A DNA stretch of 64,000 bases, taken from Alphaproteobacteria bacterium SS10 (GTDB lineage Bacteria > Pseudomonadota > Alphaproteobacteria > TMED2). Every line of letters starts with the position of its first letter. The stretch's first letter is position 1. Made by a program: the position numbers and the translations under genes. The stretch covers positions 62,001 through 126,000 of the forward strand of contig JAHCML010000004.1 of NCBI GenBank assembly GCA_019192455.1, read 5' to 3'. The notes below the pieces were generated by a model. It did not search any database, had not been told where the DNA came from, and was given only the letters and a program-made list of their open reading frames with translations. Shown here piece after piece: positions 42,414 through 52,581 of this stretch.

Positions 42414-43781
42414 ATGTCCGGTCCTACCAAACCCGATCATCTGCCGATCACCGATCATGCCCAGCTGGTGCAGGAGCTATCCGCCGGTTGCAAACCGCCG
42501 CGCGATTACCGCATCGGCACGGAGCATGAGAAGTTCGTGTTCTGTAATCAGCGCCTGACGCCGGTTCCCTATAAGGGGGAGAAGAGCATTGAGGCGCTGC
42601 TGCGCGGCCTTGGTGACGCCAGTGGCTGGACGCCGGTGATGGAGGGGGAGAACATTATCGGCCTCACCGATCACGGTGCCTCTGTCTCGCTTGAACCGGG
42701 TGGGCAGCTGGAGCTTTCCGGTGCGCCGGTTGAGACCATCCATCAGACCTGTACTGAGGTTCGTGACCACCTGGCGCTCGCTGAGAAGGTGGGTGGCGAG
42801 CTTGATCTGGGCATGTTGGGCATGGGCTTCGCGCCCAACTGGCGCCGGGATGAGATCCAGTGGATGCCCAAGGGGCGCTATAAGATCATGCGTGAGTACA
42901 TGCCCAAGCGCGGCAGTTTAGGCCTCGATATGATGTCCCGGACCTGTACGGTTCAGGTCAATCTAGACTTCCAGTCTGAGGCGGATATGGCGCGTAAAAT
43001 GCGCGTCTCACTGGCCCTGCAGCCACTCGCCACGGCGCTGTTCGCCAACTCCCCCTTCACTAAGGGCAAACCCAACGGTTATCTGAGCTATCGCGGCCAC
43101 ATCTGGTCAGATGTCGATAATGATCGCAGTGGTGATCTGCCCTTCGTCTTTGACGAGGGCTTCGGCTTTGAACGCTATGTCGATTATGCCCTCGATGTGC
43201 CGATGTACTTCGTCTATCGCGATGGCAAGTATCTGGATGCCTCGGGCCTATCCTTCCGCGACTTCCTGAAGGGCCAGCTTGAAATCTTGCCGGGCGAAGT
43301 GCCGACCATGTCAGATTGGCGCGATCACCTAACCACCATCTTCCCCGATGTCCGCCTAAAGCGGTTCATTGAGATGCGCGGTGCTGATGGTGGCCCATGG
43401 GGTAACCTTTGCGCCCTGCCAGCCCTCTGGGTTGGTCTTCTCTACAATGATGATGTGTTGGAAGAGGTTGATCGGTATGTCGCCGATTGGACCCAGGAAG
43501 AGCGCTCACGCCTGCGTACTGACGTGCCAAAGCTGGGGCTAAAAACACCGTTCCGTGATGGCACGCTCCAAGATGTGGCGCGCCATGTCCTGCCATTGGC
43601 CCAGGAAGGCCTCCGCCGTCGCAGCCAGCTGGATTGGATCGGCGGGGATGAGAGTGGGTTCCTCGATCCGCTGCTTCAGATTGCCGATAGCGGCATTAGC
43701 CCAGCCCAGGAGAAGCTGAACCGCTTCCATGAGGAGTGGGACGGCGACATCACGCCGATTTACCGTGAGTATGCGTACTGA
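42414..43781 (+). CDS. gshA: Glutamate-cysteine ligase, plant/alphaproteobacterial type
   Basis: First enzyme of glutathione synthesis, joining Glu and Cys with ATP. The 455 residues belong to the GCS2-like group of plants and Alphaproteobacteria and not to the E. coli GshA type. Motifs include RIGTEHEKFVF, GGQLELSGAP, MPKRGSLGLDMMSRTCTVQVNLDF and the MRGADGGPWGNLCALPALWVGLLYN segment. The start follows GAGGATGCGATT. The TGA stop overlaps the next ATG. Confidence 0.95.
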   Translation: MSGPTKPDHLPITDHAQLVQELSAGCKPPRDYRIGTEHEKFVFCNQRLTPVPYKGEKSIEALLRGLGDASGWTPVMEGENIIGLTDHGASVSLEPGGQLELSGAPVETIHQTCTEVRDHLALAEKVGGELDLGMLGMGFAPNWRRDEIQWMPKGRYKIMREYMPKRGSLGLDMMSRTCTVQVNLDFQSEADMARKMRVSLALQPLATALFANSPFTKGKPNGYLSYRGHIWSDVDNDRSGDLPFVFDEGFGFERYVDYALDVPMYFVYRDGKYLDASGLSFRDFLKGQLEILPGEVPTMSDWRDHLTTIFPDVRLKRFIEMRGADGGPWGNLCALPALWVGLLYNDDVLEEVDRYVADWTQEERSRLRTDVPKLGLKTPFRDGTLQDVARHVLPLAQEGLRRRSQLDWIGGDESGFLDPLLQIADSGISPAQEKLNRFHEEWDGDITPIYREYAY

Positions 43782-44044: not shown

Positions 44045-44323
44045 TTAGTCGTCGTTGGCGGCTTCATGCTTGGCGAAGTCATTCGCCAGATCACGGTGTA
44101 GGCGTTTGCACAACAGCGCCTCACGCTCCTCATTCGGCGCATCGACAATCGCTTTAATTCGCTTCTCAAGCCATGCCTTAGCCTTGGCTTCTTCCGGCTC
44201 ATCGGGATCGGGATCCACATGGGCCAGGGTCTTGGCGATCTCATCAACCTGGGCACGGTTTAGCTCGCTACCGGCCCCCATCATCAGGCCTTTAAGCCAA
44301 TGGGCGAATTGATAGGTCTTCAT
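44045..44323 (-). CDS. Small acidic/basic helical protein, unknown
   Basis: A 92-residue protein, MKTYQFAHWLKGLMMG at the start, then a long charged helical region with PDPDEPEEAKAKAWLEKR and CKRLHRDLANDFAKHE. No signal peptide. It does not share the blocks of the neighbouring paralogue array and lacks its promoter element, so I treat it as separate. The start has no clear ribosome-binding site, so confidence is moderate. Confidence 0.5.
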   Translation of the reverse strand: MKTYQFAHWLKGLMMGAGSELNRAQVDEIAKTLAHVDPDPDEPEEAKAKAWLEKRIKAIVDAPNEEREALLCKRLHRDLANDFAKHEAANDD

Positions 44324-44370: not shown

Positions 44371-44862
44371 CTACACACGCCCCATGCCGATGGCTAGGCG
44401 AATTGTTTCACCATCGCGATCATTGCCATGCATGGTGACCCGGGCCTTCTCACCAACGGCGGCCTGGACATCTGGCACGTAGTTCTTCTCAAACAAGGCG
44501 CGGGCATCAGCATCCAGGGCGGACCGCATATCGCTTAGCTCAGTGGCAAAGCTCTCATTATCCTCGAGCCGGGCACGGCGGGTTTTGAGGTCAATGACAT
44601 CTGTTTTGATCGCGCTCGGCATCTGGCTCAACGTGTGGAAATACGGCTTAGCCTTACGCAGTAGTTCGGCGTAATCCCGGTCCATGGCACGGCCATCGCG
44701 GGCCAGGACGGTGTCGATGGCTTGAACCAGTTCCTTGGCATGGGCATTGCCACGAAGGTTCGGCTTTTCCTCGCCTTGAAGCTTGTCGATGCCGGTGGCG
44801 ATGCCAATGACCTCAAGCGTTAGGGTCTCGGCTGAACCGTCTCTTTGGAACTTGGAAAACAT
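44371..44862 (-). CDS. Array family protein, copy 1
   Basis: 163 residues from ATG 44862 (MFSKFQRDGSAETLTLEVIG). Block 1 is LTLEVIGIATGIDKL, block 2 is ELVQAIDTVLARDGRAMDRDY, and the end (ETIRLAIGMGRV) resembles the family C-terminal motif. The PxW block is missing here; the region is replaced by a charged stretch (LKTRRARLEDNESFATEL). No clear ribosome-binding site precedes the ATG. Function unknown; membership in the family is seen by eye. Confidence 0.75.
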   Translation of the reverse strand: MFSKFQRDGSAETLTLEVIGIATGIDKLQGEEKPNLRGNAHAKELVQAIDTVLARDGRAMDRDYAELLRKAKPYFHTLSQMPSAIKTDVIDLKTRRARLEDNESFATELSDMRSALDADARALFEKNYVPDVQAAVGEKARVTMHGNDRDGETIRLAIGMGRV

Positions 44863-44905
44863 ATGTCGCGCTTTGCTGCTTAGGGGATGCAGATTATTGC
44901 GCCAG

Positions 44906-44933
44906 ACCTTGCCCGCTTTTTAGGAAAGTGCGC
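44906..44933 (-). promoter_or_regulatory. Array-type promoter element, copy 1 (weak)
   Basis: Minus strand reads GCGCAC, then TTTC plus 12 bases, then CAAGGT. It has the TTTC and the 16-base spacing of the array elements but a poor -10 like part. Confidence 0.35.
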
Positions 44934-44939
44934 AGCCCG

Positions 44940-45395
44940 TTAACGCCCGCCGCCAGCACTCGCGCGATCACTCAGCGGGGCGTTGGGGGCGGCATCCCCG
45001 GTTGGGCCAGCAAACCAGGCGGCCATCTTCTCAGCTGCGGGGCCCATTTGCGCCTGGAATGCATCGTATCGCCGGTCCCATGCTGGGTTGCGGTCACTAG
45101 CTGGGGCCATGCAATCGGCTGGGGTAACGATTTGAATGCTGGTCATGCACTCAATCTCTGTTAGGCCAATAAGGTGGCGGCGTGATTGGCTTAGGAACTG
45201 GGTGATCTCCGGCTCCATCGCCTTGCGATTGTCTTTCAGGATTCGGTCGATCTTGTGCGCCTGGCGCACGGCTTCTGCTGAGGTGGCAATGCTTTGATTT
45301 GCTTTGCCGAGCTTGGTCGCACCGTTGATTAGGCCGATTGTCTCTAAGGTGACGCTCTCAGCCGTGGGCTTTTTCCATAGCCGCTGAAACCACAT
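44940..45395 (-). CDS. Array family protein, copy 2 (altered C-terminus)
   Basis: 151 residues from ATG 45395 (MWFQRLWKKPTAESVTLETIG), with GGGAGAG ten bases upstream. Block 1 is VTLETIGLINGATKL, block 2 AHKIDRILKDNRKAM, and NPAWDRRY is the PxW block. The C-terminus ends in a Gly/Ala/Ser-rich segment (DRASAGGGR) and lacks the IAxKMG block, so the end may be truncated or out of frame relative to the ancestor. An in-frame start at 45455 is less likely. Confidence 0.75.
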   Translation of the reverse strand: MWFQRLWKKPTAESVTLETIGLINGATKLGKANQSIATSAEAVRQAHKIDRILKDNRKAMEPEITQFLSQSRRHLIGLTEIECMTSIQIVTPADCMAPASDRNPAWDRRYDAFQAQMGPAAEKMAAWFAGPTGDAAPNAPLSDRASAGGGR

Positions 45396-45467
45396 GGGAC
45401 GGACGCTCTCCCTAAGCGATGTTATCTGTTGCTGCCTCATTTCGCGGTGCAGCAAATCGGTATCGGG

Positions 45468-45495
45468 ACATTAGTCGGGTAGGTAGAAAGTGTGA
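45468..45495 (-). promoter_or_regulatory. Array-type promoter element, copy 2
   Basis: Minus strand: TCACAC, TTTC plus 12 bases, TAATGT, with a 16-base spacer. The last hexamer matches a sigma-70 -10 at four of six positions. It lies 73 bases before the ATG. Confidence 0.55.
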
Positions 45496-45548
45496 ATCCA
45501 CCTTCAGCGAGCGGCGGGGTTTTTGCGTCGCGTTATGTTTATCGCAAC

Positions 45549-46046
45549 CTATAGTTTGCCCATCTTCATGGCGATGCCAACGCTCAGGTCCCGACGGGCG
45601 GCACGCTCTACTTCAGCGGTGGGCTTATTGTTGTGTTCCGACAGGACATCATAAGCGAACTCGCGATCAAAGATGCGAGTGGCTTGCTCATCCAAGCCGC
45701 TTTTCAATGCATGTAGCTTTGCCTTCCAGGCTGGATTTGGCTCATGAATTGGAACACTGATGGGAGCCTGTACAGCCATGCGGCGGCCAGTATCAAAGCT
45801 GGCTTTGGTGCCGGTCAGTGCCTGTAGGCCGTCGCGTGTTTTTGTTAGCATGTCACGGACATCTCGACTTAGAACACGGCGGTCGCGAGCCAGGACTGTG
45901 TCGATGCGTTTGGCGTATTTCTCGGCCGCGGTATTGCCGCTGGCATTGTCGGGGCCTCCATCCAGGTCCTTGGCACCCTTAATTAGGCCGATAGTCTCTA
46001 GTGTTACGGTTTCCGCGTCTGGACCTCTGAGCCACTTGCCTATCAT
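45549..46046 (-). CDS. Array family protein, copy 3
   Basis: 165 residues from ATG 46046 (MIGKWLRGPDAETVTLETIG); AAGGAG six bases upstream decides this start over an in-frame TTG at 46052. All five blocks are clear: VTLETIGLIKGAKDL, AKRIDTVLARDRRVL, VRDMLTKTRDGL, HEPNPAWKAKL, and SVGIAMKMGKL at the end. The protein is predicted to be helical and cytosolic. It is the closest relative of copy 4, and the two 3' ends are also similar at the DNA level. Confidence 0.8.
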   Translation of the reverse strand: MIGKWLRGPDAETVTLETIGLIKGAKDLDGGPDNASGNTAAEKYAKRIDTVLARDRRVLSRDVRDMLTKTRDGLQALTGTKASFDTGRRMAVQAPISVPIHEPNPAWKAKLHALKSGLDEQATRIFDREFAYDVLSEHNNKPTAEVERAARRDLSVGIAMKMGKL

Positions 46047-46106
46047 CGCCAACTCCTTCGCTTCGAAACCGGCACGCTGTGGTTTTCTGCGTGTACCGTA
46101 CTCAAA

Positions 46107-46134
46107 ACGCTAAAGTTGGGTATCGAAAGCGCAA
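46107..46134 (-). promoter_or_regulatory. Array-type promoter element, copy 3
   Basis: Minus strand: TTGCGC, TTTC plus 12 bases, TAGCGT; 16-base spacer. TTGCGC shares four positions with the -35 consensus. It lies 60 bases before the ATG. Confidence 0.6.
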
Positions 46135-46156
46135 AGAAATTTGGTTTTGCGGGGGC

Positions 46157-46654
46157 TTATAGTTGGCCCATCTTCATGGCGATGCCGACGCTAAGGTCTC
46201 GCTTGGCGGCCCGCTCAACCTCAGCGGTTGGTTTACCGCCGTGTTCAGCGACAACATCGCTGGCAAAGGTCTGGTTAAAGATGCTGTCGGCTTGCTCATT
46301 CAGGCTGCTTTTCAGGTCTTGCAGCTGGGCCTTCCATTCCGGGTTGGGCTTATGAATGGGCATGATGACCCCGGGGTAAACCGGCACAAACTTGCCAGTG
46401 TCGAAGCTTGCCTCAGTTTTGGTCAGCTCGCGTAAGCCATCTCTTGTTTGGATGAGCAGGTCACGGACTTGCTTATCGAGAACCCGGCCTTCGCGGCGCA
46501 GGACTTTGTCGATCTTCTTGGCAAAGACTTCGGCAGAGACATTGCCGGTCATGTTGTCCTTACTTGGGTCGAGTTCCTTGGCACCTTTGATCATGCCAAT
46601 CGTCTCAAGCGTTATGGTCTCTGCGTCCGGACCTCTGAGCCACCTACCTAACAT
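46157..46654 (-). CDS. Array family protein, copy 4
   Basis: 165 residues from the second of two adjacent ATGs (46654, MLGRWLRGPDAETITLETIG), five bases after GGAGG; the ATG at 46657 is too close to it. Blocks are ITLETIGMIKGAKEL, AKKIDKVLRREGRVL, VRDLLIQTRDGL, HKPNPEWKAQL, and SVGIAMKMGQL. It has the same length as copy 3. Like copy 3 it carries KPTAEVERAA just before the C-terminal block. Confidence 0.8.
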   Translation of the reverse strand: MLGRWLRGPDAETITLETIGMIKGAKELDPSKDNMTGNVSAEVFAKKIDKVLRREGRVLDKQVRDLLIQTRDGLRELTKTEASFDTGKFVPVYPGVIMPIHKPNPEWKAQLQDLKSSLNEQADSIFNQTFASDVVAEHGGKPTAEVERAAKRDLSVGIAMKMGQL

Positions 46655-46713
46655 CATGACCTCCCATCCCTTAACCAAGGGCTTCAAATTTCTCTGCGTT
46701 TTGTGTAGCGCGC

Positions 46714-46741
46714 ACACTAGTTGCGGCTGCCGAAAGCGCAA
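46714..46741 (-). promoter_or_regulatory. Array-type promoter element, copy 4
   Basis: Minus strand: TTGCGC, TTTC plus 12 bases, TAGTGT; 16-base spacer, 59 bases before the ATG. The first ten bases are identical to those of copy 3, while the spacers differ. Confidence 0.6.
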
Positions 46742-46817
46742 AATTTATTGAATTATGAAGGCATGATTTGTGGGTATTATTCTTGTTTGGTGAACAGTGT
46801 GGGTGGTGGGGGCTGCC

Positions 46818-47318
46818 CTAGATTGCCTTCATATGCATGGCAATCTTTAAGCCCTGATCATGGCGTGCATGTTCGCGCCGATCTTTGACTGGTGTGTGTT
46901 GGTGGCGGTCTTGCACACTGCTTGCGTAGTGGGCCTGAAATACGGCCTGGGCCGTTGGCTCCAACTCACGCTTCAGCGCATTGAAACTGCCGGTCCAGTC
47001 AGGGCAGGGCATTGAGGGTTCACCCTCCGGACACATGATCCAGCTATCCTCGCCAATGATACGGCCGCTGCGCTTACGGGATAGGATGTCCAGGCCGTGA
47101 CGCGCACGGGTTAGCAAGGCTTTGGCATCACCGCTGATGCCGCCCTTCTCATGCTTTAAGGCGCTATCGATGCGCTTAACCATTGCGGTCGCGGCATCTT
47201 GGCCATGGACTAGGAGTTTACCTGCCTTAGGCAGTTTATCGGCACCGGTCAGAAAGCCGATCACCTCTAGGGCGACAGTCTCAGCACGGGGTGCGAGTAA
47301 TTGTTGGGCACCAAACAT
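46818..47318 (-). CDS. Array family protein, copy 5
   Basis: 166 residues from ATG 47318 (MFGAQQLLAPRAETVALEVIG) with GGAGG six bases upstream. Block 1 is VALEVIGFLTGADKL, block 2 VKRIDSALKHEKGGI, and PCPDWTGSF stands for the PxW block. Two extra cysteines occur in an insertion (IMCPEGEPSMPCPD). The end is LKIAMHMKAI, a variant of the shared C-terminal block. Confidence 0.78.
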   Translation of the reverse strand: MFGAQQLLAPRAETVALEVIGFLTGADKLPKAGKLLVHGQDAATAMVKRIDSALKHEKGGISGDAKALLTRARHGLDILSRKRSGRIIGEDSWIMCPEGEPSMPCPDWTGSFNALKRELEPTAQAVFQAHYASSVQDRHQHTPVKDRREHARHDQGLKIAMHMKAI

Positions 47319-47366
47319 GGCTCGCCTCCAACCGCCCAATTACTGGGCATTGAAACAACCAGGTTC

Positions 47367-47396
47367 TGCTTACGCCTGTGCTTGGAAAAAGTGCGG
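47367..47396 (-). promoter_or_regulatory. Array-type promoter element, copy 5 (atypical)
   Basis: Minus strand: CCGCAC, TTTTTCC and a longer spacer (18 bases), then TAAGCA. It keeps GCAC-T-rich and a TA hexamer but departs from the 16-base spacing. Confidence 0.35.
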
Positions 47397-47455
47397 TGCA
47401 ATATCAGCGGGCCAGCCATGCCAATTCGATGGCTATAGCTTTCCGGTGACAGTGG

Positions 47456-47923
47456 TCAGCCGCCAGCGCGATGTCTTGGGCGGCGGTCTTCAGTGCCCAG
47501 TCTAGGTGCCTGCGGCTTATTTGCCGGGGCCTCAAGGTCCATTTTGATCGCGACAAAGGTGGCGGTCGGCCCAGCCATATCACGCTTAAACCGCTCATAG
47601 GCCCGGTTCCACTTCGGATCGGGGCCATACTCATCAATCGGGCCGAAGCGGGTGATTTCCTTATGGCCGGTGGGCTTACTGCTTGGCATCTTGCCCAAAG
47701 CTTCCAGCGGTCCTTTAGCGGCTTTGAGATACTCAGCGGTCGGGCCGTCGATCTCAACCTTCGGATGGGTCAGTGCGCGATCAATCTTCTTCGCCAGCCG
47801 TTCTGCCGATTGGTGCGCCAGCATGTTGGTGGCGCCGCGCTTCACATCCTTTAGACCGGTAACAAGACCGACAATTTCAAAGGCGAGGGCATCGGGTTTG
47901 GGCTTGGTGAACTTGCTGAACAG
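47456..47923 (-). CDS. Array family protein, copy 6, CTG start and possible frameshift
   Basis: Family homology extends upstream of the first ordinary start (GTG 47845) to a CTG at 47923: LFSKFTKPKPDALAFEIVG lines up with copy 1 MFSKF. GGAAG lies eight bases before the CTG, and no ATG, GTG or TTG exists in frame upstream. From the CTG the protein has 155 residues with AKKIDRALTHPKVEI and GPDPKWNRAY. The C-terminus (TEDRRPRHRAGG) is unlike the family, while another frame from about 47510 to 47404 reads LDWALKTAAQDIALAAD ... KAIAIELAW, so a frameshift near 47510 is possible. It may be a decaying gene or a CTG-started one. Confidence 0.6.
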   Translation of the reverse strand: MFSKFTKPKPDALAFEIVGLVTGLKDVKRGATNMLAHQSAERLAKKIDRALTHPKVEIDGPTAEYLKAAKGPLEALGKMPSSKPTGHKEITRFGPIDEYGPDPKWNRAYERFKRDMAGPTATFVAIKMDLEAPANKPQAPRLGTEDRRPRHRAGG

Positions 47924-47986
47924 GGCTCTGACTTCCGTGATGTTGGCGGGTTGGTGCGGGTGCGATCCCGCACGCCGGATACCCGC

Positions 47987-48014
47987 AAACTAAGCAGCAG
48001 GCCCGAAAGCATCA
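47987..48014 (-). promoter_or_regulatory. Array-type promoter element, copy 6
   Basis: Minus strand: TGATGC, TTTC plus 12 bases, TAGTTT; 16-base spacer, 64 bases before the CTG. The element is retained although the start codon is not normal. Confidence 0.5.
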
Positions 48015-48041
48015 AATCGGTGGGGAAGTTAGGTCGCTGGC

Positions 48042-48959
48042 TTAAAGCCGCATGCCGCCGACAACCGGCTTATCCGCATCGGCGCGAAGTTGGCCAACCA
48101 CATCGGCGGGCTCGGCCTTCACTCTCGCAACCAGTGCCTCAGCATGGGTCGCTAGGCTCTGCTGAACATGCTCTAGTTTACGGGTCCAGGCGGGGTCTGG
48201 CTTGTGGACGGCAACAAGGCCCTCACCATAGCCAGCACTCTCACCGGTTGGTTGTGAGCTTTTGCTCTCGGCGAGATAGAGGAAGCTGTTGCGGGCCAGG
48301 CCGAGGAAGTGTCGCGCACTTGGGTCCATGGTATCGCCACTATCTTTCAAGACCTTGCCAATCTTCTCTGCCATCCGGGATGCAGCGAGATCGCCATCGG
48401 AGCCATCAAAATTCTTAACCAGCTTCTTTTCACCCAGGATGTAGCCCGCTGTTTCTAGGGCCAGGGTGTTGCCATCGGGGCGCCGTAGGAAGGCGCTGAA
48501 TAGCCGGGCCATGCCAGTTGGTGCTGGAGTATCAATGTTCCAGTCAGTAGCCGTCGACTGCTCAGTCACCCGCTTTTGAACCAGGCCAGCCTCTTCTTGA
48601 AGGGCGCCTTTGAGTTCATCAAGTTTGGCAGCCCATTCGGGGTTCGGCGTTTTGTAGGTGCCGGCATAGCCCGTCATCGCCGCATGGCCGAAGCTCCCGG
48701 AATGGACGATGGCACCGGGCATCGTCTCAAGCTGGCTGAAGGCGCGGTGGGCATTGGTTAGGAAGGCGCGCACATGATTATCAAGCAGGCCGCCATTGCC
48801 GCTAAGCACTTGCTCGATCTTCCGGGCTTGTTTGCCAGCACTCTCTGACAGGAGGCCGCCATTCTCCGCGGATTTTAGTTTGCTAGTGCCCAGGATGAGG
48901 CCAGCGGTTTCCAACGTCACTTCGTTGGCGCCGGGCTGGCGCAGGAACTTCCCAAGCAT
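48042..48959 (-). CDS. Array family protein, copy 7, two fused domains
   Basis: 305 residues from ATG 48959 with GGAG upstream. Residues 1 to about 145 form one family domain (VTLETAGLILGTSKL, ARKIEQVLSGNGGLL, KTPNPEWAAKL). A second begins at about Met150 (MARLFSAFLRRPDGNTLALETAGYILG) and has AEKIGKVLKDSGDTM and HKPDPAWTRKL. The linker TDWNIDTPAPTG joins them. This is an in-frame fusion of two neighbouring copies, with no internal ribosome-binding site at Met150. The C-terminal IAxKMG block is absent from both halves. Confidence 0.8.
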   Translation of the reverse strand: MLGKFLRQPGANEVTLETAGLILGTSKLKSAENGGLLSESAGKQARKIEQVLSGNGGLLDNHVRAFLTNAHRAFSQLETMPGAIVHSGSFGHAAMTGYAGTYKTPNPEWAAKLDELKGALQEEAGLVQKRVTEQSTATDWNIDTPAPTGMARLFSAFLRRPDGNTLALETAGYILGEKKLVKNFDGSDGDLAASRMAEKIGKVLKDSGDTMDPSARHFLGLARNSFLYLAESKSSQPTGESAGYGEGLVAVHKPDPAWTRKLEHVQQSLATHAEALVARVKAEPADVVGQLRADADKPVVGGMRL

Positions 48960-49020
48960 CTCGCAATCTCCAATGGTTGGCGTATGGGCGCGTATATGCG
49001 CGACCCCGAAATTTGGGCCG

Positions 49021-49048
49021 AACCTACGCAGTGCTGTTGAAAGCGGAA
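49021..49048 (-). promoter_or_regulatory. Array-type promoter element, copy 7
   Basis: Minus strand: TTCCGC, TTTC plus 12 bases, TAGGTT; 16-base spacer, 61 bases before the ATG. Only one element precedes the two-domain gene, as expected for a fusion. Confidence 0.55.
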
Positions 49049-49081
49049 ACCGCTAATCAGGCGCAATTGCAGAGATGGTTA

Positions 49082-49531
49082 TCAGATCTGGCCCATCTTG
49101 AGCGCGATCTTCATTGCAGGGTCGGTTTCCGCGACCTTCCCGAGAGCTGCGCGATCATCCCGATCATGTTCACGGCGAAGCTCAATCGCGTAGCGGTGGC
49201 TGAAGATGCGGGTTGCTTGCAGGTCGAGGCGTTCTTGCGCTGCTTCAAACGCGCGGTCACGACCGGCGGCGGTGGTCAATTCACCAATCTGGCCAAGCTG
49301 TTCACTGGCATCGCTAAGGAAGCGGCTCAACTCGCTGTCCATGCTGTGGCGGTTCGCATGAACAACCTTACCCAAGGTCTCCGACAGCGCTTTCGCCGCT
49401 GGTGCCACCGCATCGATGTCCCCGCCACCAAGCTTTGCGGTTCCTTTGACGAGACCAATGGTCTCAAGAGTGACAGCGTCAACAGCTGGAAGTTGATTAT
49501 CAGCGGAACGTTGGAGATATGGCGAGAGCAT
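49082..49531 (-). CDS. Array family protein, copy 8
   Basis: 149 residues from ATG 49531 (MLSPYLQRSADNQLP), five bases after GGAGG. Block 1 is VTLETIGLVKGTAKL, block 2 is weaker (SETLGKVVHANRHSM), and the C-terminus MKIALKMGQI is a clear family end. The PxW block is missing; AGRDRAFEAAQERL takes its place. It is the first gene of the array in the direction of transcription, 92 bases after the tldD stop. Confidence 0.77.
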   Translation of the reverse strand: MLSPYLQRSADNQLPAVDAVTLETIGLVKGTAKLGGGDIDAVAPAAKALSETLGKVVHANRHSMDSELSRFLSDASEQLGQIGELTTAAGRDRAFEAAQERLDLQATRIFSHRYAIELRREHDRDDRAALGKVAETDPAMKIALKMGQI

Positions 49532-49564
49532 GGTTGCCTCCGTGCGCATTATTATGATTGCCGG

Positions 49565-49592
49565 ACGCTAATTTTCTTTATTGAAAGTGCAA
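49565..49592 (-). promoter_or_regulatory. Array-type promoter element, copy 8
   Basis: Minus strand: TTGCAC, TTTC plus 12 bases, TAGCGT; 16-base spacer, 33 bases before the ATG. It is among the best matches to the array consensus and allows transcription separate from tldD. Confidence 0.6.
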
Positions 49593-49623
49593 ACGATATC
49601 CGTCCCACTTGCCAATAGTTGCG

Positions 49624-51057
49624 TTAGGTGGCGGTTCCGCCGACGGTCAGGCCATCAATGCGCAGGGATGGTTGGCCAACCCCAACCGGCACCCATTGGC
49701 CGGACTTGCCGCAGTTACCGATACCGTCATCAAGTGCCAAATCATTGCCGATCATGGTGATCTGACGCATGGCCTCAGGACCATTGCCGATCAGGGTGGC
49801 GCCCTTTACGGCAGGGCCCAGCTTCCCATTCTCAATCAGATAGGCCTCGGTCGCGGAAAACACGAACTTGCCCGAGGTGATGTCCACTGAGCCACCGCCG
49901 AAATTGGCCGCGTAAATCCCGTGATCCACCGAGGCGATCATCTCTTCTTGGGTTTTATCGCCATTCAGCATGAAGGTATTGGTCATGCGTGGCATTGGGT
50001 TATGGGCATAGGATTGGCGGCGGCCGTTGCCAGTGGCGGGGACGCCCATCAGGCGGGCATTCATCCGGTCCTGCATGTAGCCAACAAGCTTGCCGTCCTC
50101 GATCAGTACATTGTGAGCTGATGGCGTACCCTCATCATCAATGGTGATGGAACCACGACGGTTGGCCATGGTGCCATCATCGACGACGGTAACGCCTTTG
50201 GAGGCGACCTGTTCACCCATCAGGCCGGCGAAGGTTGAGGTGGATTTCCGGTTAAAATCACCTTCCAGCCCATGGCCCACCGCCTCATGAAGCAGCACGC
50301 CCGGCCAACCAGCGCCAAGCACCACCGGGATCTCACCGGCAGGGCCAGCAACAGAGCTTAGGTTAACCAGCGCCATGCGCAGGGCCTCATCGACCGTAGT
50401 CTGCCAATAGGCTGGGTCCATCAGCTTGGCATAGGTGATACGGCCACCGCCGCCGAAATTACCGCTCTCTTGCCGGTCGCCTTCACCAACAATGATGCTG
50501 ACATTCAGGCGGACTAAGGGGCGGATATCAGCGCTGCGTTGGCCGTCACCGCGCATAATCTCAACCGCAGACCAAGAACCAGCCAGGGTCGCAGAGACCT
50601 GGCGAACCCGGCTGTCCTTCGCACGGGCATAGGCGTCAATCTTGGCCAGCAGGTCGATTTTGTCAGCAAACTCAACCAGGGCCAGGGGGTTCTCGTCGGT
50701 ATAAAGCGTGACTGATGGGGCAGCGGGCGCCACGGCTAGATGGGCGTTGCGGCCAGAATGAACCGATTGCACCGTATCCATGGCGCGCTTGATCGCGCCC
50801 TCCGATAGCTCGGTGGAGTGTGCATAGCCGAATCGATCCTCGGCAACCGAACGCAGGCCAAAGCCTTGATCGGTATCGTAGGTCGCGGATTTTACGCGCC
50901 CATCATCCCAGACGATGGCTTCTGACTGGCTGTACTGGAGGTAGAGCTCACCATCATCGGCGCCACGCAACGCATCGGCGACAAGCGCCTCAGCCCGTGC
51001 CTGATCAAGGCCGGTTTGGCTGTAGAAAAGATCGCTGGTGGTTTCGAGATGCGACAT
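49624..51057 (-). CDS. tldD: TldD zinc metalloprotease subunit
   Basis: Active subunit of the TldD/TldE peptidase. From ATG 51057 (MSHLETTSDLFYSQTGL) it has 477 residues, the family size; upstream in-frame starts as far as 51147 add unlike sequence. The zinc motif is HEAVGHGLEGD (HExxxH), and a downstream GNCGKSGQ supplies the third-ligand cysteine region. Other family parts are DQGFGLRSVAEDRFGYAHS and SYAHNPMPRMTNTFM. Its partner pmbA is about 10.5 kb away. It lacks the array-type promoter element. Confidence 0.95.
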   Translation of the reverse strand: MSHLETTSDLFYSQTGLDQARAEALVADALRGADDGELYLQYSQSEAIVWDDGRVKSATYDTDQGFGLRSVAEDRFGYAHSTELSEGAIKRAMDTVQSVHSGRNAHLAVAPAAPSVTLYTDENPLALVEFADKIDLLAKIDAYARAKDSRVRQVSATLAGSWSAVEIMRGDGQRSADIRPLVRLNVSIIVGEGDRQESGNFGGGGRITYAKLMDPAYWQTTVDEALRMALVNLSSVAGPAGEIPVVLGAGWPGVLLHEAVGHGLEGDFNRKSTSTFAGLMGEQVASKGVTVVDDGTMANRRGSITIDDEGTPSAHNVLIEDGKLVGYMQDRMNARLMGVPATGNGRRQSYAHNPMPRMTNTFMLNGDKTQEEMIASVDHGIYAANFGGGSVDITSGKFVFSATEAYLIENGKLGPAVKGATLIGNGPEAMRQITMIGNDLALDDGIGNCGKSGQWVPVGVGQPSLRIDGLTVGGTAT

Positions 51058-51198
51058 GGGGCCGTCCTGGTAAGCGGATGAAGGGTCGGTAGCGGTGGTT
51101 GCCGCCATCACATTACTTGATGTGGTAGCAAATCCCAGCCAAGCCATCCCACACTTTCTTTTTTGCGTTTTTGCCGGGGCGGCGCTAAGCCATCAATC

Positions 51199-52581
51199 AT
51201 GGATGACAGCGCAAACCCACAGCCACAACCGGCGAATGATCGCCCACCCGCAACCCTGGCCCCCGAGGTTCCGACCCGGGCCGTGATGCGACCGGCAGAA
51301 ACCGTTGAGGCAGAGGCCGTCTCGGAAGGGGCGAACCGATATCCGTTTCGTGATGTTCAGGGCCGTGCCGCCATGTTGGCCGCTGGTGATGTGCCCTTCG
51401 CACCGGGGCTAAGCGCGCCGGCGGCGGTTAGTCATTTTGCCACCGTTAGTGGTGATAGCCCGGTTGAGGCGGATCGCGAACATCTTGGTTGGCTTTGTTA
51501 CAGCGTGGGCGCAAACCCACCCGCACCCGATGCGACCGAGCATGTGGTTGAGTTCAATGGCTGCTTGGTCCACTGGCGCTTTGATCGCGGTATCTCAACC
51601 TACACGGTTGTTCAACGCCAAGCTGAAGGTGGTGCCTTCGCTAGCCATGCGCTTGATGCCCTGCCAGAGGATTGGTTGACCGGCCTTAATGGTGAACGAC
51701 TCTTCGGCTTGCACTTGTTCTTTGAAGAATCAACAGGGCCAGAGCGCAATCGTGCGGCCTTGGCGCGGTTATTTGGCCGTGATGATTATCTCGGCTGTGC
51801 CGTTGCCGGTGGTCGTGGCCAGCTTTGGGCCGATTGGCATGGTGATGCCGATGGTTTCCCGCGGATCCTGTTGCGCGATGCCGGGTTGGGTAGCCGTGAG
51901 GCGGGTCGGATGGTCGTTGAACTTATCCGCCTGGAGCATGCGCGGGTGATGAGTTTGGCGGCTCACAGCGCGCTTTTGCCGCTGGCGGGCCAGATGGCAG
52001 CCTGGGAACAACGCATGGCACCGGCACAGGGTGATTTGCTGCCTGATGCCGAAGCTGCCCAAACGGTGCGTGAGGGCCTCGCTGCCCATCACGCAGATCG
52101 CGCTGCCCTAGCCGCTGCCTTGGTCGATGGCGATGTGGCACAGGCCGCGCTTGCTGCCCTAGATACTCAACGCTTACCGGGCTTGATGTCACTGAGTGAT
52201 TTCATTGGGCATACCCTCGCTGGGCTTACCCGTGATCTTAAGCAATGGTCTGCCCGCCTCGCTGTGCTGACTGAGAGCTTAGAACTTGCGTTGGCCCAAT
52301 CGGCTGCCGAAGACCGCCAAAGACAGGCCGAGGCCATGCAGTTGCAGACGGCTGTCGCCGCCCGTACGGCGCAGGCCCAGGTTCAAAACCGCCGCCTAGT
52401 GCGGGTTTTGGGCCTTGCCGGATTGACCGCGATCTTTGCCTATCTGGGTCAATTGGTGGGTGAGGGGCTGGCCGCTGCCGGTATTGTCGGCGATGCAGGG
52501 CTAATCTCAATTACCGCTGTTCCGCTTGCGCTAATGGCCGCCTACGCCCTCTTGTTTATGGGCGGTAAAGGCCAGCGCTAG
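51199..52581 (+). CDS. DUF3422-family membrane-anchored protein
   Basis: 460 residues from ATG 51199 (MDDSANPQPQP), divergent from tldD. The pattern fits DUF3422: an N-terminal alpha/beta region with HWRFDRGISTYTVVQ and WADWHGDADGFPRILL, then RMVVELIRLEHARVMSL, a long coiled-coil-like part (SLSDFIGHTLAGLTRDLKQWSARLAVLTESLE) and two C-terminal membrane helices (about 408-435 and 438-455). The family is common in Alphaproteobacteria, and its function is unknown. The first 55 residues are Pro/Ala-rich and probably disordered. Confidence 0.8.
   Translation: MDDSANPQPQPANDRPPATLAPEVPTRAVMRPAETVEAEAVSEGANRYPFRDVQGRAAMLAAGDVPFAPGLSAPAAVSHFATVSGDSPVEADREHLGWLCYSVGANPPAPDATEHVVEFNGCLVHWRFDRGISTYTVVQRQAEGGAFASHALDALPEDWLTGLNGERLFGLHLFFEESTGPERNRAALARLFGRDDYLGCAVAGGRGQLWADWHGDADGFPRILLRDAGLGSREAGRMVVELIRLEHARVMSLAAHSALLPLAGQMAAWEQRMAPAQGDLLPDAEAAQTVREGLAAHHADRAALAAALVDGDVAQAALAALDTQRLPGLMSLSDFIGHTLAGLTRDLKQWSARLAVLTESLELALAQSAAEDRQRQAEAMQLQTAVAARTAQAQVQNRRLVRVLGLAGLTAIFAYLGQLVGEGLAAAGIVGDAGLISITAVPLALMAAYALLFMGGKGQR

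Follow-up and report, generated by a model that had tools for sequence, protein, structure and literature searches.

Gene array between gshA and tldD

The window analysed here is a 64,000-nucleotide stretch of the genome of Alphaproteobacteria bacterium SS10 (contig JAHCML010000004.1, positions 62,001 to 126,000). Between gshA (42414-43781, plus strand) and tldD (49624-51147, minus strand) it contains an array of eight consecutive minus-strand open reading frames (ORFs; 44371-49531), designated g1 to g8, which encode nine copies of one domain of about 160 residues. The copies share common ancestry, a confidently modelled common fold and a two-box element that lies upstream of most of them, including members dispersed elsewhere in the genome. 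The family appears never to have been described and, as far as searched, is confined to one isolated alphaproteobacterial lineage.

Common ancestry was assessed by a leave-one-out test, in which each array copy was removed and a profile of the remaining copies was used to recover it. All nine domains are recovered, with E values from 4e-16 to 4e-54, whereas none of the 999 shuffled versions of each copy falls below E 0.01. Because the left-out copies are recovered far above this background, the profile comparisons demonstrate that the array copies are homologous, and the initial annotation, which described nine copies of one domain in eight consecutive minus-strand genes, was correct on this point. 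Pairwise identity is mostly 20-37%, the sole close pair being g5 and g6 (65%), which is also the only pair close enough for the ratio of nonsynonymous to synonymous substitution rates (dN/dS) to be measured, at 0.22. A tree built from all copies has long terminal branches and lacks resolution, and on that basis the expansion of the family is judged to be old. Both the strong divergence and the old expansion had been anticipated from inspection of the sequence.

The most upstream gene, g1 (49082-49531, leave-one-out E 4e-16), is a single-domain member without the beta-hairpin segment; it probably starts at 49531, with an alternative start at 49549. The next gene, g2 (48042-48959), is a two-domain fusion with domains at about 48516-48959 (E 4e-26) and 48045-48503 (E 8e-30). 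In g3 (47456-47923, E 7e-23) the C-terminus is aberrant, and ATG, GTG and TTG are all missing at the homologous start, where translation probably begins at a CTG (47923) preceded by GGAAG; because of this start, g3 may be weakly translated. These are followed by g4 (46818-47318, E 4e-31), g5 (46157-46654, E 4e-54), g6 (45549-46046, E 8e-53), g7 (44940-45395, E 2e-26) and g8 (44371-44862, E 6e-29). A conserved C-terminal helix is missing in g3, g7 and the first domain of the g2 fusion.

Shine-Dalgarno-like sequences ahead of most member starts, the codon bias in the sense frame (0.53-0.68, versus 0.35-0.48 in the other two forward frames) and the dN/dS of 0.22 for g5 and g6 together indicate that the array genes are real. 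Their base composition is similar to that of the surrounding genes, and Rfam has no match in the array region. In no copy is any stretch hydrophobic enough to form a membrane helix (the best 19-residue Kyte-Doolittle mean is 1.1), in agreement with the initial annotation. Directly 3' of the array is a 92-residue ORF (44045-44323, minus strand), for which no family was found and which has no evident kinship to the array domain.

The upstream two-box element

All array genes but g4, and two dispersed copies, have the element TTkGCRCTTTC-N12-TAGNGTC upstream; it occurs nowhere else in the window. The spacing between its boxes is fixed at exactly 12 bases, and the second box begins 39-81 bases upstream of the start codon; outside the element, the intergenic gaps show little resemblance to one another. 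Within the array all sites are on the minus strand: TTTGCACTTTC-N12-TAGCGTC for g1 (49564-49593, so that position 49592 falls within it), TTTCCGCTTTC-N12-TAGGTTC for g2 (49020-49049), TTGATGCTTTC-N12-TAGTTTG for g3 (47986-48015), TTTGCGCTTTC-N12-TAGTGTG for g5 (46713-46742), TTTGCGCTTTC-N12-TAGCGTT for g6 (46106-46135), TTCACACTTTC-N12-TAATGTC for g7 (45467-45496) and, weakest within the array, TGCGCACTTTC-N12-CAAGGTC for g8 (44905-44934).

With a leave-one-out weight matrix, the expected site is the best match in nine of ten upstream gaps (p <= 0.0005 in seven gaps; the two dispersed copies included in the test each gave 0.012). Across about 128,000 window positions, six of the array sites score 18.6-23.2 when held out and the seventh, that of g8, 12.9, and the best position elsewhere reaches 11.8-13.3. 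Nine places in the genome differ from the consensus by no more than two mismatches, and six of them lie ahead of family members. The element can be read as a putative promoter, with a -35-like TTkGCR and a -10-like TAGNGT separated by a 17-base spacer that starts with CTTTC, and the array copies are probably switched on together.

A wider regulon was also considered, since many orphan genes have an intergenic site ahead of them, but it could not be demonstrated: pattern matches number 38 genome-wide versus 33 for a control pattern, and neighbouring genes are orphan almost as often, about half of the neighbouring control genes also having no Pfam match above the cut-off. Within the window, a weak element-like site just before tldD (51186-51215, minus strand, score 12-13) ranks among the strongest matches that belong to no family member. 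Elsewhere in the genome, the only non-family site that stands out is on contig C8 (C8:33292, score 22.8), about 35 bases before the gene for a 303-residue protein (L144 4293-5268, C8:33.3 kb) with a likely signal peptide, a repetitive beta-solenoid-like sequence, weak similarity to FapA and no assigned family. A weaker element precedes the first of three tandem orphan paralogues of 478, 496 and 464 residues (L140 4167-8650, C3:801 kb), the second and third of which match at E 7e-25. Another element-like site lies upstream of a gene for a DUF6782 putative metallopeptidase with a HELTH motif (L165 1568-2827, C3:1223 kb), and the sequence of this site recurs on contig C16 (C16:3531).

Dispersed members of the family

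The genome (3.19 Mb, 16 contigs) contains 13 domains of the family in 12 genes on four contigs; four of these genes are outside the array, on other contigs. One member (C5:10302) adjoins glnK-amtB, and a second is found at C3:624953. The other two are divergent: the copy at C3:487775 begins 36 bases after a gene for a radical S-adenosylmethionine (SAM)/SPASM protein, and the copy at C6:127769 is a 150-residue ORF. The neighbouring genes of the four have nothing evident in common.

The C6 member was found through the element. When a pattern derived from the array sites only was scanned against the genome, a one-mismatch match at C6:127708 pointed to the ORF downstream, which protein searches up to then had missed, and a profile built without this ORF scored it at E 7e-4 among 3,075 ORFs. 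Its structural model has the same helix order and no hairpin, but the predictor's alignment included the family, so the model is not independent support. The dispersed copies and the shared element, which the initial annotation had missed, are the most informative new facts about the family.

Predicted fold and conserved residues

An AlphaFold2 model of g6, built from an 11-row alignment, shows with confidence a bundle of four helices plus a beta-hairpin (predicted local distance difference test, pLDDT, 92; predicted template modelling score, pTM, 0.85). It comprises a short N-terminal helix, helices at residues 11-23, 37-58 and 61-77, the hairpin at 83-103, a helix at 105-129 and three short C-terminal helices. 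Foldseek searches of the PDB gave best E values of 0.39 for g6 and 0.94 for a second member, and the best VIA-align Z of 7.7, to unrelated helical bundles, is within the chance range for such bundles. A sequence-profile search of the PDB reached a best E of 0.68.

Across 13 rows only G20 and L67 are invariant, with E17, G24, A41, I48, L52 and A122 nearly so, and most of the remaining conserved columns are hydrophobic. No invariant polar residue among these rows points to an active site. Because so little is invariant and the conserved columns are nearly all hydrophobic or glycine, the family would seem to consist of binding or assembly proteins with a conserved core and not of enzymes.

Cytochrome b562-type and other up-down four-helix bundles resemble the family in their four-helix arrangement (VIA-align Z 6.3-7.7 in middling rows; a structural resemblance only). 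However, the family has no conserved haem or metal ligands, identity is 6-12%, the Z scores are in the chance range, and the hairpin and C-terminal helices are extra.

Distribution and genomic setting

No window copy matches Pfam-A or NCBIfam above the curated cut-off, and neither do two distant copies. PHROGs gave no significant match (best E 0.12), and PADLOC anti-phage defence profiles matched none of the eight proteins. No relatives were found in plasmids, phages, viral contigs or GTDB contigs, the last scanned with an exact short peptide pattern that detects close relatives only. Likewise, no relative was found in 385 genomes of the class, in 398 of the phylum, or in the 50 genomes whose tldD is most similar (Rhodospirillales and unclassified alphaproteobacteria; the nearest tldD is 68% identical). 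Weak matches in other genomes (E 0.0005-0.008) are short pieces inside larger ORFs or run across stops, and were judged to be chance. Literature searches returned nothing on the family.

Of 80 related loci, 42 contain gshA and tldD together in convergent orientation, separated by gaps between 5 bases and about 5 kb long that hold unrelated, variable genes. Since relatives carry such variable genes between convergent tldD and gshA, the array is judged to occupy a junction that tolerates insertions.

Possible functions of the family

The interpretation favoured here, to which we give roughly even credence, is an undescribed lineage-specific family of small, soluble, non-enzymatic four-helix-bundle proteins that act in binding or assembly and are co-regulated copy by copy. 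Old tandem duplication and dispersal would have enlarged the family to 12 genes, and one regulator or sigma factor may read the element as a promoter. Because most copies have a promoter-like element of their own, the array would be a set of separately transcribed, co-regulated genes and not one operon. The products may act by binding, as interchangeable or mixed subunits or adaptors, with a helical core that is kept (helix 1 with G20xxxG24, and helices 2-4) and with loops, hairpin and termini that could vary to change partners or assembly. A more specific version is possible but considerably less probable. In it, the members would form, or attach to, a cellular assembly peculiar to the lineage, each expressed from its own dedicated promoter under a sigma factor or an activator, and a deep-branching alphaproteobacterium would thereby produce a dozen variants of one part simultaneously.

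Several points weigh against this interpretation. The g4 gap has no significant element match in the leave-one-out weight matrix, and the copy designated C3b also has no element. The element is a sequence pattern only, and descent since duplication could preserve some of its similarity, though the rest of the gaps is little conserved. Antisense codon bias equals that of the sense frame in several copies, so codon bias by itself is weak evidence for the genes. The binding or assembly step depends on the absence of catalytic residues, and the family has no known relative that would connect it with a process. Finally, the term lineage-specific holds at class level only, the closest relatives being outside the collections searched.

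Among the alternatives, the family could consist of structural proteins associated with a granule, a membrane or, as the initial annotation also suggested, a specialized body; the copies would then be isoforms expressed together to form or cover a single structure inside the cell. Phasins, which are polyhydroxyalkanoate granule proteins, are small soluble helical proteins with several paralogues per genome and no catalytic residues, and the family resembles them in this way of working: its many probably co-regulated small helical isoforms also lack catalytic residues, signal peptides and membrane helices, and most copies show a weak trend toward a short amphipathic basic N-terminus. However, this amphipathicity is not significant in any single copy, no Pfam phasin or other structural family matches, and the gene context differs, with no polyhydroxyalkanoate, granule, vesicle or shell genes among the array neighbours, so that we regard such a structural role as possible but unlikely. 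The dispersal of the genes, their single putative promoter type, the lack of relatives and the similar elements ahead of several orphan genes might instead suggest secreted effectors of a contact-dependent system. In hrp-box or tts-box effector regulons, one promoter element precedes many dispersed single genes, a comparable way of regulation, but the element described here differs in sequence and is nearly confined to the family. In addition, a VirB4 search of the genome was empty (one marker per system was used; type VI secretion and extracellular injection systems were not searched), the single SctV-type gene is FlhA within a flagellar cluster, genomic sites barely outnumber those of the control (38 versus 33, with about half of the control neighbours also lacking a Pfam match), and dN/dS for g5 and g6 is 0.22; effectors are accordingly thought improbable.

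An array of immunity proteins against rival toxins would also fit tandem, divergent, small soluble paralogues, but it is less probable still, given that no PADLOC, Pfam or NCBIfam immunity family matches, no toxin genes adjoin the array, base composition is similar to that of surrounding genes, and dispersed members retain the same promoter-like element. Least probable is that the proteins are substrates of a radical SAM maturase, in the manner of precursors of ribosomally synthesized and post-translationally modified peptides. A SPASM protein resembling peptide maturases is encoded directly upstream of the copy at C3:487.7 kb, 36 bases away, but this kind of neighbour is seen for only one of the 12 genes, the enzyme's relatives in Pseudomonas and on Rhizobium plasmids belong to a multi-enzyme cassette without the family, and the C-termini are conserved in most copies and not hypervariable. 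Decay into a largely non-functional orphan repeat family, about as improbable as the effector explanation, might account for the truncated copies and the odd start codon of g3, but not for the intact frames, the dN/dS of 0.22 for g5 and g6, or the conservation of core columns and upstream elements.

The initial annotation thus stands in part. The family matches no known family in sequence and fold searches (Pfam, NCBIfam, PHROGs, PADLOC, PDB), is old, and is lineage-confined across the genomes searched; profile searches of the kind that the annotation proposed, in the libraries and genomes covered, found no characterized family, and the structure prediction for g6 yielded the confident four-helix bundle with no Foldseek match with E under 0.3 in the PDB or viral models. 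Its suggestion that the copies diversify as effectors, antigens or immunity proteins do was not supported, given the low dN/dS of the one measurable pair, the empty VirB4 search and the flagellar identity of the SctV-type gene. Families of paralogues confined to one lineage are common but hardly ever offer a handle on function. A motif nearly restricted to the family is such a handle: it predicts co-expression, it pointed to a hidden member, and it could reveal the regulator and the inducing condition.

Other features of the genome

The radical SAM/SPASM gene next to the divergent C3 copy (L134 4517-5683, C3:486.5 kb) has relatives that are 40-52% identical in Pseudomonas megaplasmids and a Rhizobium plasmid. 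In the Pseudomonas megaplasmids, the surrounding cassette includes a phosphoenolpyruvate-utilizing enzyme, a second radical SAM protein and a 2-oxoglutarate oxygenase. A flagellar and chemotaxis cluster (L186 and L185, C3:722-760 kb) includes FlhA, FlaF, FlbT and two flagellins, and because of its presence the organism is probably motile.

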